Assembly (NCBI GenBank): GCA_017554145.1
Contig: JAFZIZ010000011.1
Coordinates: 1-64,000 of the forward strand
DNA: 64,000 bases
From: Prevotella sp.
Lineage (GTDB): Bacteria > Bacteroidota > Bacteroidia > Bacteroidales > Bacteroidaceae
Direction of reading: 5' to 3'
The translations under genes were made by a program, and so were the position numbers. Below are positions 22,163 through 36,846 of this stretch, in pieces (positions within the stretch are counted from its first letter, which is position 1; each line of letters begins with the position of its first letter). The notes under the pieces were generated by a model. The model was given only the letters and a program-made list of their open reading frames with translations. It ran no database searches and was not told the origin of the DNA.

Positions 22163-23539
22163 TTATCTCAGTTTCATGTCTTTCCAACTATCTATCATCG
22201 TCTGTGAGGGTATCACCGTTGGCGTTTGTTTTTTGTCATAATCTGCAAACGCCTGACGCTTCACTTCCGTTGTCAGATAGTCACTAAGTTCTCCTAAAGT
22301 GGTATCCCCCTTCGTTTCCTGCAACTTCTTCAGCAGGTAGTAGGTGAACATACCATGTTTCTGATTTTGATAGGCGTATGCCGTCTCGTCATTCTGAGAG
22401 GCAGAGAAGACGATGATATGACCCTGGGGCGCTGTAGGCTTCACCTTAATGGCGACACCACGCGCGGAGGCAAGCATCTTCCCTTCACGCTTAGCACCAT
22501 TGAAACAAGCATCGAGGAACACTGTGATGCGCTCGGCAGGGATGCTTCCCAATTCCTGATACAAGCGTTCCAAAGGATAGGCTGACTCTATATCGTTACT
22601 ATAACCGTCGACAGGCAACAGATAGGCTGTCTTACTCGCCTCATCAGGAATACCGTGACCTGCGAAATAGAAAATAGCCCTACCCTTTCCGCCAGTGACC
22701 TCCATTGCCTTTGCCAACCATCGTACTGACGTCCGTATCTTGTTCAGTCCTGCATTGGTGACATAGTTAATCTGATTCTCTGGTACCCCAAAGGTTCTCT
22801 GAACATACTCCTTGAAGATTTTCGCATCGTTCTCCGCATAGAGCACGGCATCATCTTCCGCATACTTCTCGTTGCCGATAATCACGGCAAAGGTATTCAT
22901 ATCGTACTGAGCAGCCACAGGGATGCCTACATCGACATTCGTTGTTGTTGCCGCCATCGACTGCTTCTGTTCCTCCAGCTTTTTATTGATGCGTTGCAGA
23001 GAGGTTTTGGCATTTTTAGAATCAGGATTTTTCTCCAGCACTTTTTCATATAATTCCTTTGCTTTTTGATAGTCTTGAGGCACACCACTTCCTGAGTAAT
23101 AGCAAACTGCTAACTGCATAATTCCATCGACATAGTCCTGCGACGCAGCCTTCTGAAACCATTCTACTGCCGTCTTCTCATCAATAGTTCCTCCCCATCC
23201 CATTTTATAGCTTCTCCCCATATTACATTGGGCGGGGGCATAACCTTGATCTGCAGCCTTGCGATACCACTCTATAGCCTTCACCTCGTCTTGGTAGACT
23301 CCGATACCTTTCTCGTAACAATATCCTACCTTGTTTTGGGCAGAGTCGAGTCCCATTTCTGCTGCCTGAAGATACAGTTTGATTGCCATTTCGGGATTCT
23401 TGTCAACCCCCGTTCCTTTCTCATAGTTCTTTCCCTTTTGGTACAGTTTGACGGCCTCTGTATTTTGGGCATAGGCATACGGTGAAACCAGTGCTACAAG
23501 GAGGACTGCAAACAGAAATATGTATCTATTTTGTTTCAT
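22163..23539 (-). CDS. Exported Sel1-repeat caspase-family protease (copy 1)
   Basis: 458-aa predicted cysteine peptidase of the caspase/metacaspase clan (C14). A signal peptide (MKQNRYIFLFAVLLVALVSP..YAQ, about 25 residues) sends it out of the cytoplasm. Residues about 28-172 form four Sel1 repeats (KGKNYEKGTGV, YEKGIGVYQD, CYYSGSGVPQD). The caspase domain, about 215-456, has catalytic His295 in FYFAGHGIPDE and Cys345 in LDACFNG. The C-terminal block HGMFTYYLLKKLQETKG is shared by all paralogues here. It lies 8 bp downstream of copy 2 in the same operon. Target and activation trigger are unknown; a Lys/Arg preference as in metacaspases is possible but not shown. Confidence 0.88.
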   Translation of the reverse strand: MKQNRYIFLFAVLLVALVSPYAYAQNTEAVKLYQKGKNYEKGTGVDKNPEMAIKLYLQAAEMGLDSAQNKVGYCYEKGIGVYQDEVKAIEWYRKAADQGYAPAQCNMGRSYKMGWGGTIDEKTAVEWFQKAASQDYVDGIMQLAVCYYSGSGVPQDYQKAKELYEKVLEKNPDSKNAKTSLQRINKKLEEQKQSMAATTTNVDVGIPVAAQYDMNTFAVIIGNEKYAEDDAVLYAENDAKIFKEYVQRTFGVPENQINYVTNAGLNKIRTSVRWLAKAMEVTGGKGRAIFYFAGHGIPDEASKTAYLLPVDGYSNDIESAYPLERLYQELGSIPAERITVFLDACFNGAKREGKMLASARGVAIKVKPTAPQGHIIVFSASQNDETAYAYQNQKHGMFTYYLLKKLQETKGDTTLGELSDYLTTEVKRQAFADYDKKQTPTVIPSQTMIDSWKDMKLR

Positions 23540-23547
23540 ACCAACTC

Positions 23548-25182
23548 TTATTTAATCATCAAATCACGCCACTTGTCCTGCATGCCAGAAGAAGGAACAA
23601 TCGATGGCGTCTGCACTTTATTGTTTTCTACAAACGACTGACGTTTTACTTCTGCTGTCAGATAGTCACCAAGCTCTCCCAAAGTCGTATTGCCTTTCGT
23701 CTCTTGCAACTTCTTCAAAAGATAATAAGTAAACATACCATGCTTTTGAGCCGTATAAGGATAGGCTGTTTCGTCACCCTGAGCAGCTGTAAAGACAATC
23801 ATCTTGCCTTGTGGAGCCTCCTCCTTAACCTTAATAGCCACACCACGAGCAGACGCCATCATGTCGCCTTCTCGTTTGGCTCCGCTGAAACAGGCATCCA
23901 AAAATACGGTGATACGTTCTGCTGGCAATGCACCCAGTTCCTTGTATAGACGAGTCAGCGAATAAGCCGACTCCACATCACTGCCAATGCCGTCCACAGG
24001 CAACAGATAAGCATTTTTATTAGCTTCGTCTGGGATTCCGTGACCCGCATAGTAGACAATCACCTTCCCTTGTCCGCCTGTTGCATCCATCGCCTCCTTC
24101 AACCAGCGTACGGCACCTCGAATCCTGTTCAGTCCTGCATTGGCAATGAGGCGTATGTTTTTCTCTGGAACACCCAATGTCTTCTTCACATATTCTGCAA
24201 ACACTTGGGCATCATGTTCTGCAAAGGGTACCGCTGCCTCATTCTCGTACTGCTCGTTGCCAATGATGACAGCATAGGTGGTGCTAGCCTGCTGTGATAC
24301 TTGTGGGATATTTTCATCAACATTCGTCACATCCTTTATAGGCATTACGGGCAACTTTTCCTCTACAGGTGCAACCTTCTGTTGACTGGCTAAAAGAGCC
24401 TCTTGCTGTTTCTTCTTAGCCCTTTCTAACCAAGGTCCTGAAAGCTTTATATCATTTTCTTTCGATGCTTTCTCTAGCCAATAGACAGCTTTGTCATAGT
24501 CTGTCTTAGTACCTTGTCCATTGTAATAGCACAACCCTAAAAAATGATGTGTGGGTCCGTTTAACTCACCTTTCCCCTCATGCTCTACACTCTTACTTAA
24601 CCAGTAAAAAGCCTGGTCATCGTCCTGCTCTACGTCACAATATCCGTTCATATAATAGCAACCTAGCAGGCCTTCTATAATGGCAAGATCTTCTATTTCA
24701 TCAGGATGAGGTTGTTCCATCACTTTGCGTATAAGCGACAACGCTTTCTTTTCGTCTGCAGGTACATTGATTCCCGAGAAATATATTTGAATCAACTGGA
24801 CGGCTAACTTAACACTACCCTTGCCTTCTTCAATCAATTTTGTACTTTTGTCCAACCAGTATTGCAGTTCCTGTTTGTTAGCATATTGGATATAGTCTTT
24901 CGCGAAACCACTATGTATTGCAAGCAATAGACGAAGATACCAGTCATGCCCTTGTTCTGCTACTTTACGCATCCAGTAAAACCCATAATCAATATCTTTC
25001 GCATCCGTAACGTCCATTATCTTGAGCTGTGCATCCAGATTGCCCTTTCTTGCCGCCTCGATATACTGATCATAAACCTCTTGATTGACAGGAGGATATT
25101 TCGGTTTGGGTTCCATTTCCTGCGCCATCGCCATCAATGTCACAGCCCATAGCGCAATTATCAAGAAAAGCCTTGTTTTCAT
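23548..25182 (-). CDS. Exported Sel1-repeat caspase-family protease (copy 2)
   Basis: 544-aa paralogue of copy 1. Signal peptide MKTRLFLIIALWAVTLMAMAQ. Longer helical repeat region, about residues 35-255, with Sel1-like units (YYMNGYCDVEQDDDQAFYWL, YYNGQGTKTDYDKAVYWLEK). Caspase domain about 300-544 with His381 in YYAGHGIPDE and Cys431 in LDACFSG. Its ATG overlaps the stop of the upstream membrane protein gene by 4 bp, so the two are coupled. It diverges from copy 1 in the repeat region but is close in the protease domain, as expected if the repeats set partner specificity. Confidence 0.88.
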   Translation of the reverse strand: MKTRLFLIIALWAVTLMAMAQEMEPKPKYPPVNQEVYDQYIEAARKGNLDAQLKIMDVTDAKDIDYGFYWMRKVAEQGHDWYLRLLLAIHSGFAKDYIQYANKQELQYWLDKSTKLIEEGKGSVKLAVQLIQIYFSGINVPADEKKALSLIRKVMEQPHPDEIEDLAIIEGLLGCYYMNGYCDVEQDDDQAFYWLSKSVEHEGKGELNGPTHHFLGLCYYNGQGTKTDYDKAVYWLEKASKENDIKLSGPWLERAKKKQQEALLASQQKVAPVEEKLPVMPIKDVTNVDENIPQVSQQASTTYAVIIGNEQYENEAAVPFAEHDAQVFAEYVKKTLGVPEKNIRLIANAGLNRIRGAVRWLKEAMDATGGQGKVIVYYAGHGIPDEANKNAYLLPVDGIGSDVESAYSLTRLYKELGALPAERITVFLDACFSGAKREGDMMASARGVAIKVKEEAPQGKMIVFTAAQGDETAYPYTAQKHGMFTYYLLKKLQETKGNTTLGELGDYLTAEVKRQSFVENNKVQTPSIVPSSGMQDKWRDLMIK

Positions 25183-25661
25183 ACGTTGTCAGTATTTTCT
25201 TTTTTCAGATTCTTGGTATATATCCAGAGGGCGATGCCCAAAAGGATGATAATAGCATAGAGGATGAGATAGCGCATCTTATTGTCTGCCTCGAAAGAGA
25301 AATAAAACCAACCGAGGTTCAAAAGGAAGATGACAAGACCGCCACAGATACAAACGATGCTCGCCTGAATAGTGCGACTCAGTGGTGTCTCTGGGGTATG
25401 GTGCTTAAATACCTCTTTGAAAATAAAAACAGTGGTGGTGAGCGAGATGAAGGCACACACGGCAAAGGCTATCGTCCATTTCTGTTGTCGTTGCTCTTCC
25501 TGCTCAGCCAGTTGCTGCTGCAACTGCTCCTGTTTTTCAAGCAGCGCCAGTTCCTTATCCGTGAGATTCGAACGATACACACTGTCCCAGTTGACATCCT
25601 GTGCCATCGCCGCCAATGAAACAGTCAACAGTACCGTCATTAATAATAGCCTTGTCCTCAT
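25179..25661 (-). CDS. Membrane protein with coiled coil, coupled to caspase copy 2
   Basis: 160-aa protein of no recognised family. N-terminal signal peptide or anchor (RLLLMTVLLTVSLAAMAQ), then DVNWDSVYRSNLTDKE, a Gln/Glu-rich coiled coil (about 36-60) and three membrane segments (about 62-82, 95-118, 128-147), ending in a basic tail. It is first in an operon with two caspases and overlaps copy 2 by ATGA. Its first 50 residues are almost duplicated in the chimeric pseudogene at 29.5 kb. It may anchor or signal for the caspases; that is inference from position. Confidence 0.72.
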   Translation of the reverse strand: MRTRLLLMTVLLTVSLAAMAQDVNWDSVYRSNLTDKELALLEKQEQLQQQLAEQEEQRQQKWTIAFAVCAFISLTTTVFIFKEVFKHHTPETPLSRTIQASIVCICGGLVIFLLNLGWFYFSFEADNKMRYLILYAIIILLGIALWIYTKNLKKENTDNV

Positions 25662-25680
25662 ACGTTATCAGATTTTGGGA

Positions 25681-25688
25681 CAAAGATA
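25681..25688 (-). promoter_or_regulatory. -7 box of the membrane protein/caspase operon
   Basis: TATCTTTG on the minus strand, 19 bp before the start codon. No clear -33 box. Confidence 0.5.
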
Positions 25689-25793
25689 AAGAAAAAAATT
25701 AAAAGGAACCACTTTGGGCTCCTTTTTTTCACGGATTCAACAATTTCCAACCGATATCACGCTTAACGACTACAATGCCTCCTATGTCTCACT

Positions 25794-25870
25794 CCAGTAT
25801 CTTGCACCCCTCGTTCCAATATCTGTTATACCTCCATCGGAGATACTGGAATACCCCCATAACAGATATT
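25794..25870. repeat. Interleaved inverted repeats (A-B-A'-B' order)
   Basis: A CCAGTATCT (25794-25802) pairs with A' AGATACTGG (25841-25849). B AATATCTGTTAT (25818-25829) pairs with B' (25859-25870). The arms interleave, which would give a pseudoknot topology in RNA. It lies in the 959-bp gene-free stretch 25662-26620. Confidence 0.55.
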
Positions 25871-25942
25871 AGGATAAGAGATAGAAGGTGCTAGTGTCAG
25901 AAATAGGCTATATTTACAGGGCGCTAGCAGGTATTGAGTATT

Positions 25943-25974
25943 CTTGCATCCTTGCATCCTTGCATTCTTTCATT
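25943..25974. repeat. Four octamer units
   Basis: CTTGCATC CTTGCATC CTTGCATT CTTTCATT. A loose inverted counterpart (GAATGCAAGAATGGCAGGAT) lies at about 26121-26145, so the two flank an AT-only core. Confidence 0.65.
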
Positions 25975-26019
25975 TGGATTTTTCCATGTTAGTTTTCGTG
26001 CCGAAATTTCTCTTATTAA

Positions 26020-26049
26020 AATTATTATATATTATAATATATAATAATT
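26020..26049. repeat. 30-bp perfect AT palindrome
   Basis: Perfectly self-complementary stretch of only A and T, centred between 26034 and 26035, inside a region of about 70 bp that is nearly all A/T (further TATATATA follows). Confidence 0.7.
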
Positions 26050-26343
26050 AATAGATAATATATATATATACTATTTTATATGTTCATCTCATTTGTGGCA
26101 GCAATATCGGTTGATGAAATGGCAGAATGCAAGAATGGCAGGATGCATTTTACAGTGTATTCCTATAGTTAGTTTAACGCTAAGAACTCGCTAAGAGCAG
26201 ATGAAATTAGTCTAAGTTACTGATAATATGCGACTTGCATTTTTAACAATTGAAATAAAACACGGACAAGTCTTGCAATCTCTTGTTTCGTGCCTGTATA
26301 ATTAGTAATTTTGCCGTTGCAATGAAGATGTAACGGCGATTGT

Positions 26344-26427
26344 GGGCTGCGGCTCAGCATAGCTCGAGCGAGATCAGTTCTGCATTCACCTTGCACCACA
26401 ATTGCACTGTCAATCGAGAGACATGAG
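26344..26427. repeat. Dispersed GGCTGCG repeat, copy 2
   Basis: Begins GGCTGCGGCTCAGCATAG and contains TCTGCATTCACCTTGCA, matching the tRNA leader repeat at 11550. A TAATTTTG box occurs about 30 bp upstream. A possible remnant ORF of 10 codons (MSQKFIKNKK) follows at 26487; no intact gene is present. Confidence 0.6.
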
Positions 26428-26432
26428 GAACA

Positions 26433-26460
26433 GGCTAACTGCTAACGGCCAATAGCCACA
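26433..26460. repeat. Four degenerate heptamer units
   Basis: GGCTAAC TGCTAAC GGCCAAT AGCCACA, the same GCYAAY type as the units inside uvrA and the DUF5715 gene. Confidence 0.6.
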
Positions 26461-26519
26461 TTTGTTAACCCTTAAACTAAACAACTATGAGTCAGAAATT
26501 CATTAAAAACAAGAAGTGA

Positions 26520-26573
26520 GAAAGGCTACGGGTAGGCGCGTCAGCGGGAATGGGCGAACGAAGTTCGGGAATG
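26520..26573. repeat. Dispersed GGCTACGGGTAGGCG repeat, copy 2
   Basis: GAAAGGCTACGGGTAGGCG, then an inserted CGTCAGCGGGAATGG block, then CGAACGAAGTTCGGGAATG. Compare copy 1 at 19862. Confidence 0.65.
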
Positions 26574-26582
26574 GTAAGAAGA

Positions 26583-26612
26583 AATCCCTGCACTTTGTGA
26601 GCGTAGGGACTT
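26583..26612 (-). terminator. Probable terminator of caspase copy 3
   Basis: On the minus strand AAGTCCCT and AGGGATTT flank a loop of about 14 nt, followed by CTTCTT. It sits just downstream of the copy 3 stop. Confidence 0.5.
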
Positions 26613-26620
26613 CGTATCTT

Positions 26621-27988
26621 TTATTTAAATTTCCAATTCTTCCAGTCTTTTACTTCGTTGGACGGAGAGACTAAAGGCGTCTGCATCTTACCATTGACGA
26701 CAACACTCTGCTTCATTACCTCTGATGTCACATAATCTGCCAGTTCTCCGAAAGTCACATCACCTTTAGTATCTTTCAACTTCTTCAGTAGATAATAAGT
26801 GAACATGCCATGACCTTTCTCTTTATAAGGATATGCCGTCTCGTCGCCTTGTGCAGCCGAAAGTACTACCAAATTTCCTTGAGGGGTATTCTGCTTAGCC
26901 TTGATGGCGACTCCACGTGCAGAGGCAAGCATCTCACCATCGCGATTGGCACCACTGAAACAGGCATCAAGCAATACAACGACAGACTTTGCCTTTTTAC
27001 TGGTAAGTTCCTCATATATCTTATCCAGACTATAACCCGTAGAAACATCAGAGCCATAGCCGTCGACGGGAAGAAGATAAGCAGATTTGCTACTCTCGTC
27101 AGGTATTCCATGTCCCGCATAATAGAAGATGATATTTGCCTCACCCTTATACGCCTGCATCACCTGCGTAATCCAACTCAACTGACGCCTCATCTTGTTC
27201 AATGTGGCATCGGTAACATATCTGACATTGCTTTGCGGCAATCCTAACGTCTTCTGACAATACTCGGCAAACACCTTTCCGTCATTCAGCGCATTCGGGA
27301 CATTGGCAACTTCCATATAGTTCTCGTTTGCAATGATAAGAGCAAAGGTTTGCAAACGTGTCTGCTTGCCCACAGGAATATTCATGTCAACATCCGATTT
27401 CTTCACAGGAGCTAAAGGTTGACTGGCAGGCTGAGATTTCGGAGTGATGATCGTGATGGGCTTGGCTTGAACCAAAACAGGAGTTTGAACACCTTTTTCC
27501 TGAGCTGTTAGACCAGATGATTGTCCACTGGGATTATTCGGATTAAGGGCATAGTTCTCTTGATGTTGTAACCCCTCATTATAGATTGGAATAATGTCAG
27601 GCAACAGGAATGCCCCTCCTTTTTGGTTGAAGCGTTGCAGCCATTCCTTCTCACGAATAGCATCCTGTGAGACAACTATACCTTCTTTGTAAAAAGAGGC
27701 AAAATGAAACATAGCATCCGGAAGCCCCCTTTCCGCAGCTTTGCGATACATCTTAAAAGCGTCCGTCTCACTCTTATCTACGCCGATACCATATTTATAG
27801 CAAACGGCAATATAGAATTGGGCAGCCAATTCATTAGTAGCTGCAGCTTTTTTTAGTTCCTCAAAACCGTATTGCATATATCCCATTCGGATATACTCCA
27901 AGGCTACCAACGTTTTTTTATCAATATCTATGGCGATAGCATAGAAACTTACCAGCAAGAGGATTATTGAAAATAATGTTCGCATCAT
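26621..27988 (-). CDS. Exported Sel1-repeat caspase-family protease (copy 3)
   Basis: 455-aa paralogue. Signal peptide RTLFSIILLLVSFYAIAI. Two or three Sel1-like units (about residues 40-115, CYKYGIGVDKSETDAFKMYR), then a Pro/Gln/Lys-rich linker (about 150-205), then the caspase domain, about 210-453. Catalytic His293 in FYYAGHGIPDE and Cys343 in LDACFSG. The conserved tail block HGMFTYYLLKKLKDTKG is present. It follows the 355-aa exported protein by 6 bp, so these two form an operon separate from copies 1 and 2. Confidence 0.88.
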   Translation of the reverse strand: MMRTLFSIILLLVSFYAIAIDIDKKTLVALEYIRMGYMQYGFEELKKAAATNELAAQFYIAVCYKYGIGVDKSETDAFKMYRKAAERGLPDAMFHFASFYKEGIVVSQDAIREKEWLQRFNQKGGAFLLPDIIPIYNEGLQHQENYALNPNNPSGQSSGLTAQEKGVQTPVLVQAKPITIITPKSQPASQPLAPVKKSDVDMNIPVGKQTRLQTFALIIANENYMEVANVPNALNDGKVFAEYCQKTLGLPQSNVRYVTDATLNKMRRQLSWITQVMQAYKGEANIIFYYAGHGIPDESSKSAYLLPVDGYGSDVSTGYSLDKIYEELTSKKAKSVVVLLDACFSGANRDGEMLASARGVAIKAKQNTPQGNLVVLSAAQGDETAYPYKEKGHGMFTYYLLKKLKDTKGDVTFGELADYVTSEVMKQSVVVNGKMQTPLVSPSNEVKDWKNWKFK

Positions 27989-27994
27989 ATCGTT

Positions 27995-29062
27995 TTATTC
28001 GTTGGAATCATCTTCTCCATCTTGTTTTGTCTTCATGATGTCTGAAACATATGAGAGTTTCCCCCAGTTAGTGGTAATGCCATCAAAGTGGATAATCTTC
28101 TTATATGAAGTCTCTTTTAATGAACCTGATAAGGTAGCACCATATGTAAATACAGCCCCAATAACGGCTAGGACGGAAGGGCCTTTCTTTTTGGAAATCC
28201 ATGTACTACCTAATGTAAAAGTTCCTTTCTTATAATTGCCTTCCCAGTCACAGACGATGATAGGAGATTTGTCCTCATCAAATTCAAAGGGACTATTAGC
28301 CCTGACATGTATAACTGCAGGTGCCGTTTCCTTGACACCAAATCCACGCTTGTCTTTTTTCTTCAAGTCGGTCGGCATCTCCACATAATACGGAGCAAAA
28401 ATGACGTCACTCACCCAAGTAGATAATGCCACATTAGTCCATTCTTCTGCATTCTTATTGAAAGCATAGGCAATAGAAGCTCCGATGTTGTTGATACTCT
28501 CGTCCTCTGTCAGATGACGAGACACTGAACCAACGTAATTTTTACCCTTAACATCTTGGGTTTTTGATTCTTCTTGTAATTCATCAACGATTTCCAACAA
28601 TCGCTTATCATAGTCCGTAAAATCACCAGAAGGAGACTCCGAAGTAGTATAAGTTCCATAAATATGCATAGACATATTACATATATAAGTCTCATTTTGT
28701 TTAGTTCCTATATTAGGAGCAATCGTAATATACACATCATCTTTGGAGCTTACACCCTTTTTCGATGCCTTTTTGTCACCTTGTTTTTTCTCTGAAGAAT
28801 CAAATAAAGGAGTCGATGATCCATTGTGAAAAGCGAAACACTGAGCTAAGTCGATAAAAATAGTCTTTTTCGTCTTGTTGGTAGCCCACAACTGTTCATC
28901 ATAAAATTCCAACTTGATATTATCGTCTTCATAGACGCTATTAGCCTGCGAATAGGCAAAAATCAATGCGTTTCGATAGTCGGTCTTGATTCCACTGGCT
29001 GATGCATCCATTGTCATCAGACAGAGAGTAACAAATAGGAATAATACTTTTTTCATAATCAT
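27995..29062 (-). CDS. Exported protein of unknown function upstream of caspase copy 3
   Basis: 355-aa protein with a signal peptide (KKVLFLFVTLCLMTMDASA). Translation may start at Met1 or at Met3, six bases later. The mature protein looks beta-rich with a Lys-rich insert (EKKQGDKKASKKGVSSKDD, about residues 85-105), a Lys-rich loop near 235 (DLKKKDKRGF), and one hydrophobic stretch near 300 (VLAVIGAVFTYGATL). No family is recognised. Its position directly before caspase copy 3 suggests a partner, substrate or regulator. The upstream chimeric pseudogene and its promoter may provide the transcript. Confidence 0.72.
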   Translation of the reverse strand: MIMKKVLFLFVTLCLMTMDASASGIKTDYRNALIFAYSQANSVYEDDNIKLEFYDEQLWATNKTKKTIFIDLAQCFAFHNGSSTPLFDSSEKKQGDKKASKKGVSSKDDVYITIAPNIGTKQNETYICNMSMHIYGTYTTSESPSGDFTDYDKRLLEIVDELQEESKTQDVKGKNYVGSVSRHLTEDESINNIGASIAYAFNKNAEEWTNVALSTWVSDVIFAPYYVEMPTDLKKKDKRGFGVKETAPAVIHVRANSPFEFDEDKSPIIVCDWEGNYKKGTFTLGSTWISKKKGPSVLAVIGAVFTYGATLSGSLKETSYKKIIHFDGITTNWGKLSYVSDIMKTKQDGEDDSNE

Positions 29063-29089
29063 AGGGTTTTAGTGAATTATTATTGAAAA

Positions 29090-29531
29090 TTATTTCTTAA
29101 TAGTTATGGGGATACGACGCAGGTTCTTTTCTTTGTCGTGCTTACGACATTTGGCAAGCCACTTTTGGAAGTCGTCGTAAGAGAGTTCGCGAGGCAAGAG
29201 TTCACTCGTTATGCTCCGTCGAGCGCTCACACGTCATATTGTACTCATCCACAAAAGGACGCTCCTCCTGGGATGCTTCCTTGATGCTAAAGAACAGGTA
29301 ACGGTTGTCGACCACGTTAGCCTTCATGTAGAGTTTGTTCATGAAACGTCTGGCTGCCTGAAGGGCACGCTGCTGCAACTGTTCCTGCTTTTCAATCAAC
29401 ACCCGCTCCTTATCCGTGAGATTCGAACGATACACACTGTCCCAGTTGACATCCTGTGCCATCGTCACCAATGAAACAGTCAACAGCGCTGTCAACATGA
29501 TTACCCTCCTCATCGTCTTCATTGTTTTCAA
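29090..29531 (-). pseudogene. Chimeric remnant: membrane-protein N-terminus joined to DUF4384 C-terminus
   Basis: The reading frame from 29531 begins like the 160-aa membrane protein at 25.2-25.7 kb (MAQDVNWDSVYRSNLTDKE then KQEQLQQ). It then switches to the C-terminal part of the DUF4384 protein at 32.7-33.6 kb (RYLFF.IKEA..ER.FVDEY.MTCERS.EHN). It stops at 29202. The remaining DUF4384 tail (LPRELSYDDFQKWLAKCRKHD to TIKK) continues at 29090-29198 in a shifted frame, with the segment in between deleted. A 109-aa protein could still be made from the first frame. The structure shows recombination between two genes of this cluster. Confidence 0.75.
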
Positions 29532-29545
29532 TTAGTAATCTTTTG

Positions 29546-29577
29546 CAAAGATATATATTATTTCTTATACTTCCAAA
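29546..29577 (-). promoter_or_regulatory. Promoter upstream of the chimeric remnant
   Basis: Minus-strand -7 TATCTTTG (29546-29553), 20-bp spacer, -33 TTTG (29574-29577). It could drive the 355-aa gene and caspase copy 3. Confidence 0.65.
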
Positions 29578-29594
29578 TCTTTTGTAGAATAAAC

Positions 29595-29933
29595 ATGAAA
29601 GTGTTAAAAAAAGACTCCTCCGAAGAGGAGAACTTTTTCCTCCGAAGAGCAGTAAAATCTCCTCCGAAGAGGAGAAATGCCGTTTTTCTCACAGAGATAT
29701 GCCGTATTGGGACGGCATTCCCTTATCAAGAGAAGGGTCATGGCATGTTCACCTATTTCCTCCTGAAGAAACTACGTGAGAGCAAGGGCAACTGTACGTT
29801 AGGTGAATTAAGCGATTATATCACAACCAAGGTACAACAGCAGTCAGTAGTCGTGAATCGCAAGTCACAAACTCCCACCATCAATGTAGCCACTGCCCTA
29901 CAAGACAGTTGGAAAGACATGAAACTGAAATAA
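29595..29933 (+). pseudogene. Fragment of a fourth caspase gene (C-terminal about 75 residues)
   Basis: A plus-strand open frame of 112 codons. From about 29706 on it matches the tail of the caspases (TAFPYQEKGHGMFTYFLLKK, then LGELSDYITTKVQQQSVVV and DSWKDMKLK). The His and Cys catalytic segments, Sel1 repeats and signal peptide are all missing. The first 35 codons are translated repeat sequence, not protein homology. It lies on the opposite strand from the other caspases, so an inversion or insertion broke an ancestral copy. Confidence 0.8.
29610..29673. repeat. Three CTCCGAAGAG palindromes
   Basis: CTCCTCCGAAGAGGAG occurs twice as a perfect palindrome, with a broken copy (TTCCTCCGAAGAGCAG) between. 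The same CCGAAGAGGA core reappears at 46817-46844. Confidence 0.65.
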
Positions 29934-29955
29934 AAGATATACCCGTTACTTCGAG

Positions 29956-31590
29956 TCACTCCACCAAGATGACTTTGGCCGTTGCATTATCCATATTCGG
30001 CATCGTCATTCCTACGGAGGCATTGATATACGTGGGGTCGCAAACGACGTATTTCTTGCCGTCGAGCATGATATAATCGCCCTTCACATCCTCCGTAAAG
30101 CCGACAGCCATTGCCAGATGACCAGGATAATAGATCAGGAGACACTTCAACCCTAACAGGTCACGAACCAAACGGGAGAGTAGCACGGATCGGTCTTCAC
30201 AGTCGCAATAGGGATAGTAGAGCGATTCTTCCGCGAAGAAAGGACGGTCGTAACCCCATACCTTTTCATCAAACTCATAGACGAAGGCCGTCTGTACCCA
30301 GTTCAGCAGTCGCTCTATGGCATCCTTCTCTGTGAGTCCCTTGAGTTTCTCACGCAGCTGCGGATACAGCTTCTCTTGCACACCCTTCTCCATCGGCATA
30401 TTGGCAAGCATCGCCCAACGGGTCAGCATATTGTCCCAGATGCATGACGAAGGATAATCGTTGCAGAAAGCTATCAAGTTCTTATTCACACACGATGTGA
30501 CATCCATATCCGGATAACGGCTCGACTTCAGATGACGCACCTCAGAGGAGTCGTAGTCGAACAACTGTTCCTTGGGGATATAGAGTGACATCTGCTGCTC
30601 CTTGGGGAAGGCGACATCACAGATCTTCATGCTGAACTCTTCGCTATTGAACACATAATAGCGATCGCTGCCGATAGTGAAATAATACTGGTTGAACACT
30701 ACATGCTCCGTAGCATAGAGCAGGTAGAGTTTGCCTTGGGTAGTGCCGAGACGTACCTGATAGCCCGACTGACAATAGATATAGGCCGTCAACAGCGTTG
30801 CCTCGTTGCTTTCTCCCAGACAAGCCTTCGCGAACTTATCAAGCATCTGCAGATAAGCCCAGTCGCCCAGTTGTTTGGTGATACGCAATGCGAGACAATC
30901 TCTGATGGTATTATTATAGTCTTTGCCCGACAGTTTCTTCCAGGCATCCGAGACAGAAGCCTCACTACAATCAGTCAGTTTGAAACGCTGGGCATCAGTA
31001 AAACGAATCGTCATCTTGGTACCATAGACGGAGAAGGTGACACCAGCCTCCTCTACCACCACAGGCTGCTCCCTGATAGGAGCCACAGGCACAGGTTGCG
31101 GTTTAAGAGCAGGCAACTGCACAACTTCCTCTTCTATTGGCAACGGCTTGTTCTCTACAGGTTTCTGACGATCTTCCTCCTTAATGACAACAGGTGGTTT
31201 CTCTTTCTCTACAGGACGTGGGACACCAGGCATCGCCTTGAACTCGCTCCAAGCCCGTTTCAGGAATTCAGCATACTCCTGATTCGCCTTATCGCGGAAG
31301 TTCTCATAGTCAGTCGTGGCCTGCTGCTTAAACGACTCATAGGCAGCACGCATCGGGTCTTGCGGAGCTTCGACAGCGACGGAGACGGAGTCCTTCTCAC
31401 GAGTCACCGTAGCAGGATCGCTCGAACGCTTCTGGGCAGTCTTCTCCTTGCCCTGTGCCTTGTCTTTGACATACTTGGCATACTGCTTCGATGCCTTTGT
31501 CGCCGACTTCTTTTTCTGCTGCGTCTGAGCATCCATGCTCACACCTGTCAGCAACAGTGCCAACAGCACGATAAACCATCTATTTGCCAT
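29956..31590 (-). CDS. Exported transglutaminase-like (papain-fold) protein
   Basis: 544-aa protein. The start at MANRWFIVLLALLLTGVS gives a good signal peptide; an upstream in-frame start would add 35 residues coded inside the CHASE2 gene. A Lys-rich and Pro-rich low-complexity region spans about 25-185, with a mixed domain at about 190-400. The C-terminal transglutaminase-like core has Cys464 (CDCEDRS), His491 (YPGHLAMAV) and Asp518 (CDPTY), a full catalytic triad. Members of this superfamily act as proteases, amidases or crosslinkers. It overlaps the CHASE2 gene by 11 bp and closes the four-gene operon 34280-29956. Confidence 0.8.
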   Translation of the reverse strand: MANRWFIVLLALLLTGVSMDAQTQQKKKSATKASKQYAKYVKDKAQGKEKTAQKRSSDPATVTREKDSVSVAVEAPQDPMRAAYESFKQQATTDYENFRDKANQEYAEFLKRAWSEFKAMPGVPRPVEKEKPPVVIKEEDRQKPVENKPLPIEEEVVQLPALKPQPVPVAPIREQPVVVEEAGVTFSVYGTKMTIRFTDAQRFKLTDCSEASVSDAWKKLSGKDYNNTIRDCLALRITKQLGDWAYLQMLDKFAKACLGESNEATLLTAYIYCQSGYQVRLGTTQGKLYLLYATEHVVFNQYYFTIGSDRYYVFNSEEFSMKICDVAFPKEQQMSLYIPKEQLFDYDSSEVRHLKSSRYPDMDVTSCVNKNLIAFCNDYPSSCIWDNMLTRWAMLANMPMEKGVQEKLYPQLREKLKGLTEKDAIERLLNWVQTAFVYEFDEKVWGYDRPFFAEESLYYPYCDCEDRSVLLSRLVRDLLGLKCLLIYYPGHLAMAVGFTEDVKGDYIMLDGKKYVVCDPTYINASVGMTMPNMDNATAKVILVE

Positions 31591-32692
31591 TTTTCTGCGA
31601 ATTGATTGCGTCCTTAAACTCATTATAAATATTTTGTGCCAATACCAGGAAAGCCATTGCCGACAATGCCCAACCCATATCGAATGCGATATCATATAAA
31701 TAGAAGACCATAAAGGCCACCCACATCCATATCGCTATCCAGAAGAACATCAGGTAGCCACTGATAAGAGAGGTAGACATCAGGAAACGCAGGGCTCTGT
31801 TCTTGAGTTTCTTGGCTTGGGCTCTGAACGATGATAACATCACCTGCGTAAGCAAGACCAACAAGAAGGTAACAATAACTGTCACCCATCCGCTGGGCTT
31901 CTTGATTTCACTCTGCTCCAACAGAGTCTCTATCGAATAGGCCAACAGCTCCACGCCTGCCATCTTACCCAGCGGCGTATAGTGCATGTCGTACTCGTCT
32001 TTCATCGCACCAAAGAGCACCAACTTGTCTTTGATATATTCCGGATGAAGGGCGATAAAATCAGGATGCACCACCCGATAATGACGAGGAATGAAGTTGA
32101 TGCTCACATCATCTTCTACCACCCTACCCGTCTCTTTTCCTGCATAGAGGTTGGAAACCATCGTGATAAAGGATGGGACAAGCTTTCCCTCGGCTTTGCC
32201 ACCTAAGCTCAGATTACGCTTGATGCCTCCATACAGGTTACGTGGCATATTGGTAAAACCTTCCTTTACCGCTCCTTCCTCATCAGCAAAGAAAGAGTGG
32301 ACAGTCGTCTCATGACCTATCGAGTCGTTGACATAATCTAATAGTTTATAAGAGAAAACGATATTATCGTTCGACAAAGCGACCTCTGCCAACATCTCGT
32401 CGCCAATGGAGTCTTCTTTCAGTCCTTCGAACACCACATCGACACCTACCACTTTCGGATGCTGCGCCTCGATGTCCTGTATACCCTTTGCCAGTTCCCT
32501 CCTACTATACAGCTCCGACATATCGACAATCGTCACCACATCACTCACCTCCTCACCATCGTCCGTATCCTGCAGAATCTGACAATAGACATCCGTCATC
32601 TCAAACTCCTTGATAGCCTCCGCCACAGGACTCATAAATGGAAGGTTAAAGGCGATAAGGGCGAATGTGATAACCAACACAAACGCCAGCAT
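31580..32692 (-). CDS. CHASE2-domain membrane sensor protein
   Basis: 370-aa protein: one N-terminal membrane segment (residues 1-20), an extracytoplasmic CHASE2 domain of about 240 residues (VTIVDMSELYSRRELAKGI, KVVGVDVVFEG, LVLFGAMKDEYDMHYTPLGKMAGVELLAYSIETLL), then three membrane segments (about 274-296, 308-330, 335-357) and a short cytoplasmic tail. No kinase, cyclase or phosphatase follows, so output must pass through a partner. CHASE2 is fused to CHAT/caspase-like proteases in some cyanobacteria, which makes its presence here meaningful. The start lacks an obvious ribosome site and an alternative non-ATG start a few codons upstream is possible. Confidence 0.85.
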   Translation of the reverse strand: MLAFVLVITFALIAFNLPFMSPVAEAIKEFEMTDVYCQILQDTDDGEEVSDVVTIVDMSELYSRRELAKGIQDIEAQHPKVVGVDVVFEGLKEDSIGDEMLAEVALSNDNIVFSYKLLDYVNDSIGHETTVHSFFADEEGAVKEGFTNMPRNLYGGIKRNLSLGGKAEGKLVPSFITMVSNLYAGKETGRVVEDDVSINFIPRHYRVVHPDFIALHPEYIKDKLVLFGAMKDEYDMHYTPLGKMAGVELLAYSIETLLEQSEIKKPSGWVTVIVTFLLVLLTQVMLSSFRAQAKKLKNRALRFLMSTSLISGYLMFFWIAIWMWVAFMVFYLYDIAFDMGWALSAMAFLVLAQNIYNEFKDAINSQKNGK

Positions 32693-32745
32693 CGTAATGA
32701 TGATATGTCGGAACAGCGTTTTCAGTTTTAAGTCTTATTTGATTA

Positions 32746-33609
32746 TTATTTCTTGATAGTGATGGGGAAGCGACGCAGGTTCATGTCCTTGTCGTGCTTA
32801 CGACATTTGGCAAGCCACTTCTGGAAGTCCTCGTACGAGAGTTCGCGAGGCAGACGGTCATCAGACGTATTGTCAGCAGCCTTGACAAACTGATTAGGCG
32901 AGAAGACAACATAGATCTGGTTGTGCTCAGGAGAACGCTCACACGTCATCACATACTCATCGACAAAGGCACGCTCCTGCTGGGGAGCTTCCTTGATATG
33001 GAAGAACAGGTAGCGACGGTTGGCCTCGATGGGATAGATACCATCCGTCTGCGAGCGATACGGTAGCAGGCAGTAGGCATTATCGTCTGCATCGATGAGA
33101 TAAACGGCCAGATAGCCGTTGACAGGAGAACGGAACGAGAGATAAAGATCGTCGCCGTTCTTGAAGTCGTCATCCTCAAACTTATCGTCTGTACCATTAC
33201 GAAGCACACGAGCCAGAAAGTCAATCTGCGCTGTGACAATCTCACGCGCCTTACCCTTTACCCTGCATGTGACCACAAGCATATTCTGATCGTAGCTGAT
33301 GGCGTATTCAGGCTTGTCAATATCCTCTATCCACTCTCCTTTCACGTCACTACCACCGATACTAAAGAAGTCGGTCTTCGACTCCCCACCCTCGTTTTGG
33401 ATGCGTGTGGTATTCTGCTGTTGTACAATGGTACCAAACTCGTCGGCGATGGCCTGGATCCTTGCACGATCCAAAGCCGTTCGACGCGCCTGTTCCACTG
33501 TCACGTTCTCAGGAGCGTGATAGGTGTACTCTCCCTCCACCGTTTTTACTTTCTGTGCAATGACAGGGAGAGAGAGAAACGTAAGTATGATGATAATCGT
33601 TTTTCGCAT
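32746..33609 (-). CDS. Exported DUF4384-domain protein
   Basis: 287-aa protein starting at MRKTIIIILTFLSLPVIAQ; this ATG overlaps the preceding stop by 1 nt (TAATG), so I prefer it to a TTG two codons earlier. Signal peptide of about 19 residues. An N-terminal segment (ARRTALDRARIQAIADEFG) resembles the LPP20/FlgO-like flank. The DUF4384 domain covers about 140-230 (GDDLYLSFRSPVNGYLAVYL, then CLLPYRSQTDG). DUF4384 is often found fused to or beside caspase-family proteases. The C-terminal part exists a second time in the pseudogene at 29.1-29.5 kb. Confidence 0.85.
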   Translation of the reverse strand: MRKTIIIILTFLSLPVIAQKVKTVEGEYTYHAPENVTVEQARRTALDRARIQAIADEFGTIVQQQNTTRIQNEGGESKTDFFSIGGSDVKGEWIEDIDKPEYAISYDQNMLVVTCRVKGKAREIVTAQIDFLARVLRNGTDDKFEDDDFKNGDDLYLSFRSPVNGYLAVYLIDADDNAYCLLPYRSQTDGIYPIEANRRYLFFHIKEAPQQERAFVDEYVMTCERSPEHNQIYVVFSPNQFVKAADNTSDDRLPRELSYEDFQKWLAKCRKHDKDMNLRRFPITIKK

Positions 33610-34280
33610 TACCAACCAAGGATATCATCCAGTTTCTTCTGCACTTCTTCACCTTGCTTTGCCAACTCATCTGCAGCGGCCTTCTTGGCAGCAGCCTTTG
33701 CCATCTTACTATTGTAAGCAATGCAGACACGCACCTCATAACCAGTAGGTTTCTCACGGTAGATTTCCAAGAGAGGTATCGTGCGACCGATGCTTTGGAC
33801 AATCAGATTCTTGTTGGCCATAATTGACTTAGAAAGGGAGTTTGCTGTATCCTTGCCAATCTGTTCGTTGACTACCGTATTCTCAATAAGTGCCGTTATC
33901 TCCGTCTGTATCTGTCCTGCAAGATTCTGCTTGGCAAGTTCTGTGGCCTGCAACTTTGCAGCATCATAAACACTGCCAAAACTCATAGCATCACCAACAA
34001 TATATTTTTGGAACATGTCATCATCATATTCCAACTGCATGAGATACGAGCGGTCTAATTGTTTCTCCATGGGCAAAGCCCCAGGAGCAACTTTCCATCC
34101 CTCCTTGGCCAACTTCTTGGCCTCCTTACGGGAAGTCTTTGTAGCCTTCTCACTCAGTTCTTTCTTCGAGGCTTTCTTGAGTTCTTTACGTTCCTTGATT
34201 TGTTCATTGGTCAGCTGTGCATAACTGAACGTTGTTCCTGCCATCAGGCAGATGACAACAAGTAATAAACCCTTTTTCAT
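33609..34280 (-). CDS. Exported Lys-rich protein, first gene of the CHASE2 operon
   Basis: 223-aa protein with signal peptide KKGLLLVVICLMAGTTFSYA. A very basic amphipathic helix follows (residues about 25-65, KERKELKKASKKELSEKATK). A mixed domain spans about 70-200 with a repeated helix (KLQATELAKQNLAGQIQTEI), and an Ala/Lys-rich tail (KMAKAAAKKAAADELAKQGE). No family is recognised; the region near 105-185 resembles LPP20-like lipoproteins only loosely. It leads the four-gene operon and is coupled to the DUF4384 gene (TAATG). Confidence 0.75.
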   Translation of the reverse strand: MKKGLLLVVICLMAGTTFSYAQLTNEQIKERKELKKASKKELSEKATKTSRKEAKKLAKEGWKVAPGALPMEKQLDRSYLMQLEYDDDMFQKYIVGDAMSFGSVYDAAKLQATELAKQNLAGQIQTEITALIENTVVNEQIGKDTANSLSKSIMANKNLIVQSIGRTIPLLEIYREKPTGYEVRVCIAYNSKMAKAAAKKAAADELAKQGEEVQKKLDDILGW

Positions 34281-34318: not shown

Positions 34319-34348
34319 CAAAGATAAAGAAAGTATTTGGAATAACAA
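34319..34348 (-). promoter_or_regulatory. Promoter of the CHASE2/DUF4384/transglutaminase-like operon
   Basis: Minus-strand -7 TATCTTTG (34319-34326), 19-bp spacer, -33 TTG (34346-34348). Confidence 0.65.
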
Positions 34349-34450: not shown

Positions 34451-34939
34451 TTACATCATTCTGGGGCCACCCATGTGAGGACCGCGAGGACCACCAGGGC
34501 CACGACGTCCGTGACTATGCTGCTTCTGGTACTTCTCATACTGGTTAGCATTGAGGATTTCCTTCAACTTCGTATCAAACTCACGGCGACGCTCCATCTG
34601 CTTCTGCATCTCGGCACGCTGCTCTTCAGTGAACTGCGGACGCTCAGGGCGCTGTTTCTGCTCGGTAGCACCTGTCTCTCCATCGGCTTTCTTACCCTCA
34701 GAACGAGGACCACCCATACGAGGACCGCGATGAGCTTTATGAATATCCTGATACTCTTTGTTCAATGCGAGAACCTTCGTCTTCTGCTCGTCAGTCAAAG
34801 AGAGATCCTTCGTCATCTTTTCCGTCATCTCTTCGGGAGTCAACTGTTTCGGAGCCTTACGCTCACTCTGTTCATCATTCTGTGCCATCATCGTTGTCAT
34901 TGAGAGGAGGGCAACCATTGTCAAAATAATCTTTTTCAT
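34451..34939 (-). CDS. Exported DUF4890/Spy-like helical protein
   Basis: 162-aa protein: signal peptide KKIILTMVALLSMTTMMAQ, then paired helices with Spy/CpxP-type LTPEEMTEKMTKDLSLTDEQ and FTEEQRAEMQKQMERRREFD, separated by a Gly/Pro-rich linker (RGPRMGGPRSEG). The Gly/Arg/Pro/Met/His-rich tail (HSHGRRGPGGPRG, HMGGPRMM) could bind metal ions. Periplasmic chaperone or metal-stress roles are plausible by family. Not coupled to neighbours. Confidence 0.78.
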   Translation of the reverse strand: MKKIILTMVALLSMTTMMAQNDEQSERKAPKQLTPEEMTEKMTKDLSLTDEQKTKVLALNKEYQDIHKAHRGPRMGGPRSEGKKADGETGATEQKQRPERPQFTEEQRAEMQKQMERRREFDTKLKEILNANQYEKYQKQHSHGRRGPGGPRGPHMGGPRMM

Positions 34940-35121: not shown

Positions 35122-35146
35122 TGCACATTTTTTTTGCAAATGTGCA
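35122..35146. promoter_or_regulatory. Operator-like inverted repeat over the -33 box
   Basis: TGCACA (35122-35127), 13 bp, TGTGCA (35141-35146); extended arms CTGCACATTT/AAATGTGCAG. It encloses the -33 element. Confidence 0.65.
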
Positions 35147-35164
35147 GAAAAGGTATTACCTTTG
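35133..35164 (+). promoter_or_regulatory. Promoter of the acyl-CoA synthetase pair
   Basis: -33 TTTG (35133-35136), 20-bp spacer, -7 TACCTTTG (35157-35164), 23 bp before the start codon. Confidence 0.75.
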
Positions 35165-35187
35165 CACAAAATTTTGAAATTTGTGCA
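35163..35187. promoter_or_regulatory. Operator-like inverted repeat over the transcription start
   Basis: TGCACA (35163-35168), 13 bp, TGTGCA (35182-35187); extended arms TTGCACAAA/TTTGTGCAA, ending at the start codon. Same geometry as the upstream copy, centres 41 bp apart. Confidence 0.65.
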
Positions 35188-36846
35188 ATGAACGACATAC
35201 CAAGTTTTAATTCCTTAATCGTTCAATCAATTAAGGACAACTGGCTACTTGACGCGCTGACTGACTATAAGGGTTCTACGTTGCAATATCACGACGTGGC
35301 CCGCAAGATAGAGAAGTTGCATATCATGATGAAGGCCGCAGGCATAGAGAAAGGTGACCGCGTGGCCGTCTGTGGACGAAACTCTGCTCACTGGGCAGTG
35401 GTTTTCCTCGCCACACTGACCTATGGCGCCGTAGTCGTACCAATACTTCATGAATTTAATGCCGAGCAAATTCACAATATCGTCAACCATTCGGAATCGA
35501 AACTGCTATTTGTGGGCGACTATGTGGTGAATATCATCGACCCAAAAGAAATGCCTCATTTGGAAGGTATCCTTAATCTGCCAGACTTCTCGCTTCACAC
35601 CTGCCACAACGAACAACTAATGAATGCACGTGAGCACCTGAACCAATTGTTTGGCGAGAAATACCCCAGAGCCTTCCGTGCCACCGATATTCATTGGCAC
35701 GTGGACGAGCCAGAGGAATTGTGTATGCTGAACTATACCAGTGGAACAACAGGTTTCTCAAAAGGCGTAATGCTACCCTACCGTTCGTTGTGGGGCAATG
35801 TAGATTTCTGTATCACCCAATTGGGTCCGCTCCTGCCAAAGTACAGTAAGATGCTGAGTATCCTGCCGATGGCACACATGTACGGACAGGCAATTGAATT
35901 CCTTTTCCCTTTCTGTTCAGGCTATCATCTGTTCTTCCTCACCCGTCTGCCATCGCCCGCCATCATCGCAGAGGCTTTCAAGACGGTGAAACCCAGTTTG
36001 GTAGTTGCCGTTCCTCTGATTATCGAGAAGATTATCCGCAAACGTGTGTTCCCGAAGATTCAGAGCAATGCTATCAAGATACTGTTGCAGATGCCTGTAG
36101 TATCAAAGAAGGTAAAGGAGCGCATCTGTCAGGAGGTATATGCCGCATTTGGTGGTGAGGCATACGAGGTGATTGTGGGTGGTGCACCGCTGAACCAAGA
36201 GATAGAACATTTTTTGAGAGACATCGACTTCCCCATCACAACGGGTTATGGTACAACTGAATGCGCTCCGTTGATTAGTTACAGCGATTACCATGATTTT
36301 GTATCAGGCTCGTGTGGAACGCCTGTAAACCATATGGAGGTGAAGATCCTCTCGCCTGACCCTCAGCATATAGCTGGCGAGATCGTGACACGTGGTACGA
36401 ACGTGATGCTGGGTTACTACAAAAATGAGGAGGCTACCAATAAGGCGCTTGACAAGGATGGATGGTATCACACAGGAGACCTCGGCACAATGTCTGCAGA
36501 CGGGCATATTTTCATCCGCGGACGCTCGAAAAATATGTTACTGGGGGCCAATGGACAGAATGTATATCCTGAAGAGATAGAAGACAAGCTCAGTTCGATG
36601 ACGATGGTCAGCGAGTGTATTGTGGTGCAACGTGGCGATAACCTCGTGGCACTGGTCTACCCTGACATGGACGAAGTGAAAGAGATGGGCTTCACGAGCA
36701 CCGACCTGCTGAATATCATGGAGCAGAACCGTCAGCAACTCAATGACGTACTTCCTCCCTATAGTCGCATACAGGCTATTGAAGTGCGCAAGGAAGAATT
36801 TGAGAAGACACCTAAAAAGAGTATTAAACGCTACTTATATAAATAG
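35188..36846 (+). CDS. Long-chain acyl-CoA synthetase/AMP-dependent ligase (copy 1)
   Basis: 552-aa ANL-superfamily enzyme that activates a fatty acid with ATP to acyl-AMP, then acyl-CoA. The start at MNDIPSFNSLIVQ is chosen because the -7 box lies only 23 bp upstream; a longer in-frame start would precede the transcription start. Motifs: P-loop YTSGTTGFSKGVM near residue 190; GYGTTECAPLIS near 360; GWYHTGDLG near 435; C-terminal lysine region KTPKKSIKRYLYK. Acyl-chain preference is not readable. It pairs in tandem with copy 2 (6-bp gap) behind the dual operators. Confidence 0.9.
   Translation: MNDIPSFNSLIVQSIKDNWLLDALTDYKGSTLQYHDVARKIEKLHIMMKAAGIEKGDRVAVCGRNSAHWAVVFLATLTYGAVVVPILHEFNAEQIHNIVNHSESKLLFVGDYVVNIIDPKEMPHLEGILNLPDFSLHTCHNEQLMNAREHLNQLFGEKYPRAFRATDIHWHVDEPEELCMLNYTSGTTGFSKGVMLPYRSLWGNVDFCITQLGPLLPKYSKMLSILPMAHMYGQAIEFLFPFCSGYHLFFLTRLPSPAIIAEAFKTVKPSLVVAVPLIIEKIIRKRVFPKIQSNAIKILLQMPVVSKKVKERICQEVYAAFGGEAYEVIVGGAPLNQEIEHFLRDIDFPITTGYGTTECAPLISYSDYHDFVSGSCGTPVNHMEVKILSPDPQHIAGEIVTRGTNVMLGYYKNEEATNKALDKDGWYHTGDLGTMSADGHIFIRGRSKNMLLGANGQNVYPEEIEDKLSSMTMVSECIVVQRGDNLVALVYPDMDEVKEMGFTSTDLLNIMEQNRQQLNDVLPPYSRIQAIEVRKEEFEKTPKKSIKRYLYK

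Follow-up and report, generated by a model that had tools for sequence, protein, structure and literature searches.

The 64,000 nucleotides analysed here (the window) are positions 1 to 64,000 on the forward strand of contig JAFZIZ010000011.1, from the Prevotella sp. assembly GCA_017554145.1, and their minus strand carries, between 22163 and 34280, a locus of nine intact genes that all point in the same direction, as judged from open reading frame (ORF) calls and translations (Table 1). Read 5' to 3' along the minus strand, the locus runs from a protein with a basic mature N-terminus, here called LPP, through a DUF4384 protein, a CHASE2 membrane protein, a transglutaminase-like cysteine enzyme (TGL), a rearrangement scar, a protein called X, caspase 3, a stretch without ORFs, a small membrane protein and caspase 2 to caspase 1. 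The genes fall into three units, and inside each unit neighbours overlap or sit 6-53 bases apart. All nine proteins have a hydrophobic N-terminus, which in the CHASE2 protein is the first membrane helix; export was called by this hydropathy proxy and not by a signal-peptide predictor, and the hydrophobic N-termini support a predicted extracytoplasmic location for the locus proteins. The gene composition and linkage of the locus are supported by the sequence comparisons given below, while its function and mechanism are put forward as a proposal. An earlier note on this DNA had described three exported Sel1-caspases with intact His and Cys, a membrane protein coupled to them, and an operon of a basic exported protein, a DUF4384 protein, a CHASE2 protein and a Cys/His/Asp enzyme. 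All of this was borne out, by Pfam C14 and Sel1 matches with AGHG and DAC motifs, by the 4-base overlap of the small membrane gene with caspase 2 and by four intact minus-strand genes, with export of the caspases again a prediction from their N-termini.

Table 1. Features of the caspase, TGL and CHASE2 locus in the window
Feature	Position	Strand	Basis
Caspase 1: predicted signal peptide, four Sel1 repeats, C14 with His/Cys	22163..23539	-	Pfam C14 E 3.7e-25, Sel1 E 2.8e-37; hydrophobic N-terminus
Caspase 2: predicted signal peptide, Sel1 repeats, C14 with His/Cys; ends 8 bases short of caspase 1	23548..25182	-	Pfam C14 E 4.3e-21, Sel1 E 1.9e-22
Small membrane protein, 160 residues; heads the unit with caspases 2 and 1; 4-base overlap with caspase 2	25179..25661	-	ORF; related protein in L105
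Promoter-like element TTTCTTTATCTTTG upstream of small membrane protein gene; 14-mer identical to the one upstream of LPP	25681..25694	-	
959-base stretch between caspase 3 and small membrane protein	25662..26620	.	No internal ORF above 60 residues
Caspase 3: predicted signal peptide, Sel1 repeat, C14 with His/Cys	26621..27988	-	Pfam C14 E 2.7e-23
Protein X, 355 residues, hydrophobic N-terminus; ends 6 bases short of caspase 3	27995..29062	-	No Pfam family over cut-off
Rearrangement scar: 5' piece of small membrane gene, then 3' pieces of DUF4384 gene; directly upstream of X	29083..29514	-	Repeats of 86%, 76%, 89% identity; alignment
TGL: transglutaminase-like cysteine enzyme, predicted signal peptide	29956..31590	-	Cys465, His492, Asp519
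CHASE2 membrane protein, 370 residues	31580..32692	-	Pfam CHASE2 E 1.5e-21, residues 54-280
DUF4384 protein, predicted signal peptide	32746..33609	-	Pfam DUF4384 28.6 bits, cut-off 27
LPP: predicted exported, Lys/Arg-rich mature N-terminus	33609..34280	-	No Pfam family over cut-off
Promoter-like element TTTCTTTATCTTTG upstream of LPP	34319..34332	-	

The start of TGL is most likely the ATG at 31590 rather than 31695, that of the DUF4384 gene is most likely the ATG at 33609 rather than the TTG at 33615, and the CHASE2 gene may start further upstream than 32692, by about 39 bases at most. An ORF at 29202-29531 was rejected as a gene, repeat comparison making it part of the rearrangement scar. 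Short hairpins with repeated CTCCTC/GAGGAG lie at 29610-29680, between TGL and the scar, and are possibly the terminator of the LPP-TGL unit.

The three window caspases score 76-89 bits against Peptidase_C14 (Pfam cut-off 21.4), their AGHG and DAC motifs are intact, and theirs are the only C14 places found in their own genome assembly, which is 83.5% complete. Predicted folds were used for the caspases and for TGL because sequence profiles found no credible solved relative: a three-sequence caspase-domain profile had no match at 0.01 among solved structures, full-length caspase 3 retrieved Sel1 proteins only, and the best match of the TGL profile (E 0.79) was not credible. The predicted caspase structure is closest to MALT1, for which the accessible part of the source gives two acidic S1 pocket residues, Asp365 on helix alpha-1 and Asp462 two residues before the Cys (PMC4357240). 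Acidic pocket residues in the window numbering, Asp236 and Asp341, assigned by secondary structure and motif and not by superposition, occur in 31/31 aligned caspases and in all 63 distinct caspase domains of the relatives' loci and the window (out of 75 rows, with four short ones and duplicates dropped), and a pocket for Arg or Lys is predicted. The His and Cys dyad is kept in 58 of the 63, a figure that supersedes a strict motif count of 56/72. Paralogues in which Ser or Pro replaces the catalytic Cys stand beside intact ones (L026:1516-3270, L026:5719-7776, L105:5175-7223, L120:350-1771 and L120:3373-4656; L numbers are our identifiers for loci) and are possible brakes or decoys; proteins with DATFGN, DGAFSG or DGVFSG were dropped as dead caspases, as the alignment gives five dead domains only. 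Across loci the N-terminal parts of the caspases are exchangeable (Sel1, WG, LRR_5, TPR or CARDB), and a locus may hold 1-6 C14 proteins. The three window caspases reach 75.5, 78.8 and 79.9 bits with NF047832 (EACC1-associated caspases), below its curated cut-off of 140.

Two further groups of caspases came to light beside the full-size ones. Short caspases of about 234-269 residues with a hydrophobic N-terminus, away from TGL and CHASE2 (L053, L055, L057, L058, L059, L061, L063, L068, L074), form a second likely exported group of the genus. A cluster of small C14-like caspases occurs in L108, L138, L140, L148 and L175 (with a Pfam C14 match in L140); in the first four the small caspase is followed by two genes that by eye resemble sigma and anti-sigma factors and then by LPP and TGL, and L175 has only the anti-sigma-like one. 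No sigma or anti-sigma Pfam match was obtained for these genes.

TGL matches transglutaminase-like Pfam families below cut-off only (E 0.03). Its predicted structure has a transglutaminase-like fold and, tentatively, comes nearest among solved structures to the periplasmic protease LapG; the term papain-fold used in the earlier note was right as to fold class. As BTLCP is not among its Pfam matches up to E 0.1, we describe TGL as LapG-like and not as LapG. Its Cys465, His492 and Asp519, in the 545-residue numbering of alignment A2, where one codon ahead of the ATG is included, are found in 40/40 aligned TGL proteins (84/99 by strict motif), and Asp464-Cys465-Glu466 is likewise invariant in 40/40. 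For the LapG-like protein DvhG, the part of the source available describes Asp316 and Glu318 as a predicted calcium site and reports that mutation of the Asp, the Glu or Cys317 abolished activity (PMC13090378). Residues 51-72 of TGL form a basic linker with low predicted local distance difference test (pLDDT) values.

The CHASE2 protein begins with a hydrophobic stretch, which is followed by the CHASE2 domain at residues 54-280, by more hydrophobic stretches and by a short tail (domain by Pfam, helices by eye from alignment A5). CHASE2 is the sole Pfam match in its 370 residues, with neither a cytoplasmic output domain (kinase, cyclase or similar) nor a cyclic di-GMP domain among the matches, and we infer that a signal would have to pass through the membrane or the periplasm or via a partner not seen here. 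Divergent CHASE2 proteins of CHAT and caspase loci (L034, L035, L036, L038, L039, L040, L041, L042, L043, L044) share, by eye in A5, a C-terminal KSIY-like motif that the window protein lacks.

At a threshold of E 0.001, LPP has 4,554 homologues, and none of the 120 listed has a Pfam domain; Lys and Arg make up 18-33% (median 29%) of residues 21-65 in 30 homologues. The LPP and DUF4384 profiles align over the signal peptide only, and neither the DUF4384 nor the CHASE2 profile found a credible relative among solved structures. The small membrane protein has Pfam matches below cut-off only, mostly to membrane proteins, and a protein related to X lies directly ahead of a caspase in 3/80 TGL loci.

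These 80 TGL loci are the best 80 of at least 585 relatives confirmed by a TGL alignment search of GTDB genomes, each taken with up to 10 kb on either side, and their titles name Bacteroidales groups, with one given as Bacteroidia only. A C14 profile match is present in 41, with a full-size caspase in 40, and 38 loci have a caspase inside the same-strand run of TGL (gaps up to 300 bases). Similarity and profile each give 41/80 caspase loci with one locus swapped (L170 against L175, whose caspase is small), and the C14 profile did not match six proteins that had first been labelled caspase (L124 has two of them, and L105, L109, L113 and L157 one apiece). With cluster members included, 55/80 loci hold LPP or a similar protein (52 by direct match); DUF4384 is present in 40 and CHASE2 in 20. 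In all 20, CHASE2 sits immediately upstream of a TGL, and 14 of them also have a caspase. Some cultured commensals possess parts of the set: caspase, LPP, DUF4384 and TGL in Xylanibacter rodentium PROD (L156) and Prevotella sp. P5-108 (L147), and a CHASE2-TGL pair in Prevotella sp. P5-50 (L115). Some TGL loci are the same records as the genus loci described below (L109/L026, L119/L028), so joint counts hold duplicates. Among the stretches fetched for 100 relatives' loci, none of the eight genes that flank the window locus was found, and the linkage is therefore more than conserved chromosome order; it is the gene set that is conserved and not the site. Some caspase-free TGL loci carry an LPP20-NTF2 protein and a PEGA beta-barrel protein, and in L130, L132, L137, L145, L146, L152, L154, L159 and L168 TGL stands in near-constant order behind small lipoprotein-like, LPP20-NTF2-like and PEGA beta-barrel proteins.

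The nearest relative found, L105, comes from a Prevotella sp. of the yak reticulum and has a TGL that is 75% identical. Its ten genes are co-directional, with a largest gap of 387 bases, and run LPP, DUF4384, X, caspase, small membrane protein, a 322-residue protein, caspase, caspase, CHASE2, TGL; the 322-residue protein is like the Sel1 part of a caspase without a C14 match, and the middle caspase has lost both His and Cys. Upstream of X, the window holds remnants of two genes: 3' pieces of a DUF4384 gene, with 89% and 76% identity, and ahead of these a 5' piece from the small membrane gene, with 86%. On the simplest reading, an ancestral run like that of L105 was rearranged in the window and left this scar behind. 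Lack of a conserved neighbourhood had been set beforehand as a possible refutation; the neighbourhood proves to be conserved in composition, across the 80 TGL loci, the 20 genus CHASE2 loci, the L105 run and the scar.

Among 150 genomes of the genus, including that of the window, CHASE2 was found in 19, C14 in 46 and a TGL alignment match in 32, some of which match through an N-terminal FecR-like part only. Outside the own genome, 20 of 81 caspase places lie within 10 kb of TGL or CHASE2, and all 20 belong to the 47 caspases with an open frame of at least 400 residues and none to the 34 shorter ones. Such proximity occurs in 14/45 caspase genomes (own excluded) against about 0.46 expected under a rough null of uniform placement in 3-Mb genomes; the rows tested were 31 of 50 non-own TGL rows (FecR-like-only and extra pieces left out, one kept row being a broken piece), 81 caspase rows and 21 CHASE2 rows. 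Caspases are present in 16/25 genomes with TGL and 29/124 without (Fisher p 1.3e-4), and in 10/18 with CHASE2 and 35/131 without (Fisher p 0.016). Chance neighbourhood is rejected by this placement test together with the recurrence in relatives.

Of the 21 CHASE2 places outside the own genome, 20 were fetched, the other being left out at a contig end. A same-strand protease of clan CD lies within 4 kb of CHASE2 in 15/20 of these genus loci, nine times a caspase and six times a CHAT protein (only the CHAT protein of L034 was run through Pfam, which confirmed it), and the 20 loci hold a full TGL in eight, LPP in seven and DUF4384 in three. Across the phylum, CHASE2 relatives occur in 81/296 genomes, many as longer open frames. 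In 20 phylum loci of high-scoring CHASE2 matches, a FecR-like domain stands beside CHASE2 in 17, is fused to CHASE2 in one and to a caspase in one, and was not found in one; closer to the window, 21 TGL proteins also carry a fused FecR-like domain, with some records entering this count twice. A clan CD protease was found in 7/20 phylum loci, and a papain-family peptidase is fused to DUF4384 in three (L216, L217 and L226; DUF4384 exceeds the cut-off only in L226). Remote clan CD and FecR-like members may be missed, and seeds match themselves, because the profiles were built from these same loci. Overall, cysteine proteases of clan CA and clan CD accompany CHASE2 in various forms, though not everywhere.

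TAnnTTTG is a promoter motif of Bacteroidetes. The element TTTCTTTATCTTTG, found upstream of both LPP and the small membrane gene, contains it, and one further TAnnTTTG lies ahead of the scar; in a shuffle control, 5/100 shuffles gave at least three matches at up to two mismatches. A sigma-70 promoter scan was uninformative (27 found, 23.0 expected). TAnnTTTG is too general to prove co-regulation, and co-regulation of the units is suggested by this generic element alone. The protease system envisaged in the earlier note holds as a linked set in its composition and linkage, with its location predicted from hydrophobic N-termini; it is not a fixed set, and its co-regulation is only hinted at.

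Upstream of LPP, a minus-strand gene at 34451-34939 resembles by eye a Spy/CpxP envelope-stress chaperone. Beyond it, two plus-strand genes at 35134-36846 and 36853-38514 are tandem close relatives (mutual E 1.3e-259), by eye acyl-CoA synthetase-like.

Our preferred reading, held tentatively and at somewhat less than an even chance, is that the three caspases, TGL, CHASE2, DUF4384 and LPP would work in the envelope as one protease relay, with CHASE2 holding or releasing the proteases. CHASE2 would sense an envelope signal and, in the way LapD does with LapG, hold or free TGL in the periplasm, and the caspases and TGL would act sequentially or activate each other. If the caspases cut after Arg or Lys, the basic TGL linker (about residues 51-72) and the basic LPP N-terminus would be candidate sites. 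Target choice may lie with the exchangeable repeats at the caspase N-termini (Sel1, WG, leucine-rich, TPR), and LPP and the DUF4384 protein may serve as envelope anchors, adaptors or substrates.

Several observations weigh against such a relay. CHASE2 is missing from 60/80 TGL loci, 35/80 have no caspase, small caspase or CHAT protein (36 if L170 is added, whose caspase-clustered protein has no C14 profile match), and only 8/20 genus CHASE2 loci have a TGL, the other 12 being without it; the gene set is therefore modular and not fixed. No clan CD protease was found by CHASE2 in 5/20 genus loci (L029, L030, L032, L033 and L037) or in 13/20 phylum loci, and many phylum loci hold CHASE2 and a FecR-like protein without any of the locus proteases. 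The genomes of L029, L032 and L033 do have caspases on other contigs. With regard to TGL itself, the LapG-type match to its model in Foldseek alone is weak (E 1.9e-3), the LapG-type cleavage motif [TAP]AAG is absent from the locus proteins, and TGL could be a transglutaminase or amidase instead of a protease.

A bolder form of the relay, a wholly extracytoplasmic caspase cascade, is more doubtful. Here an output-less CHASE2 would directly switch periplasmic proteases of clan CA (TGL/papain) and clan CD (caspase/CHAT); repeat-bearing caspase paralogues would read the targets, and dead ones would act as brakes.

Extracytoplasmic defence is an unlikely rival, in which repeat-bearing caspases would sense phage or a contact-dependent attack at the envelope and respond by killing the cell or fending off the attack. 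Exchangeable N-termini, one to six C14 proteins per locus, dead paralogues in some arrays, patchy presence and non-shared chromosomal sites are all defence-like traits, and the caspases have a partial PADLOC match; however, the PADLOC caspase matches are limited to one model and stop within its first 158-191 positions out of 453, and the sole partner match is a weak one of the small membrane protein to a 2TM effector (E 0.0065).

Surface processing akin to the Lap system, in which TGL and the caspases would trim outer-membrane or surface proteins and so alter attachment, also seems improbable. It draws on the likeness of TGL to LapG, on the control of adhesin release by LapD/LapG according to the accessible part of the source (PMC13090378), and on a beta-barrel family (c10) in 7/80 TGL loci, with a Pfam OMP match in the L129 member. 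Against this, neither an adhesin nor a [TAP]AAG site was found among the locus proteins, and the CHASE2 protein has no detected cyclic di-GMP domain.

General envelope housekeeping or digestion by independent exported peptidases, clustered through shared envelope expression, would fit the hydrophobic N-terminus of 24/24 genus caspases with a start inside the fetched locus (29 loci tried), including short ones far from TGL and CHASE2, and the TGL loci without caspases (35/80), but we consider it quite unlikely given that the composition recurs across gene orders and chromosomal sites, with fusions between the parts.

To our knowledge, the bacterial caspase pathways worked out so far are all cytoplasmic. 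Among known systems, the relay comes close to LapD/LapG, a periplasmic BTLCP protease and its inner-membrane receptor: the TGL model tentatively comes closest to LapG, Cys/His/Asp and Asp-Cys-Glu are kept, and the TGL gene adjoins that of a receptor-like membrane protein. It differs in that the locus CHASE2 has no detected cyclic di-GMP domain, TGL has no BTLCP match, no adhesin or [TAP]AAG site was seen, and caspases, LPP and DUF4384 are extra. The window caspases resemble orthocaspases, metacaspases and paracaspases (C14B) in being nearest MALT1, with a His/Cys dyad and an acidic residue both on the first helix and two positions ahead of the Cys; unlike these, they are predicted to be exported, have TGL and CHASE2 genes alongside, and have relatives with N-terminal Sel1, WG, LRR or TPR repeats. 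In the genus CHASE2-CHAT pairs, a related CHASE2 adjoins a clan CD protease with a hydrophobic N-terminus, but a TPR-CHAT protein replaces the Sel1-caspase and the TGL catalytic part is absent from those loci. A Trichodesmium fusion similarly couples a caspase to CHASE2 with one plus three membrane helices, although, as far as the available part of the source goes, it is one protein whose caspase is read as cytoplasmic, whereas the locus has separate genes and caspases predicted outside (PMC3501461). The biofilm-regulating BiofilmReg operon of Burkholderia pairs a FecR protein with a CHASE2 histidine kinase, as CHASE2 is paired with FecR-like proteins in relatives of the locus; going by the accessible portion of its description, the locus departs from it in lacking a kinase, in the cysteine proteases of part of the loci and in the FecR-like part, which was not found in the window (PMC5192318). 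DUF4384 has been noted in some cyanobacterial caspase homologues, again in the part of the source available (PMC7475262). Exported caspases and caspase arrays are as such not new, as a survey of caspase homologues, in its accessible part, notes possible signal peptides, caspase operons with OmpA domains and multi-caspase operons in Bacteroidetes among others; that part contains no tie of exported caspases to TGL, LPP and CHASE2 (PMC3501461). The earlier note knew of no described pathway of this composition, and our literature search agrees: judged by titles and abstract openings, mostly outside subscription journals, it found no description of an exported caspase-TGL-CHASE2 set.

If the wholly extracytoplasmic cascade is real, it would be a new kind of bacterial signalling, by envelope proteolysis instead of cytoplasmic phosphorylation. 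The locus would offer a model of signalling by a receptor that lacks an output domain, and a recurring envelope caspase set of gut and rumen Bacteroidales, built partly from nameless families, would give a testable route for the editing of envelope proteins.

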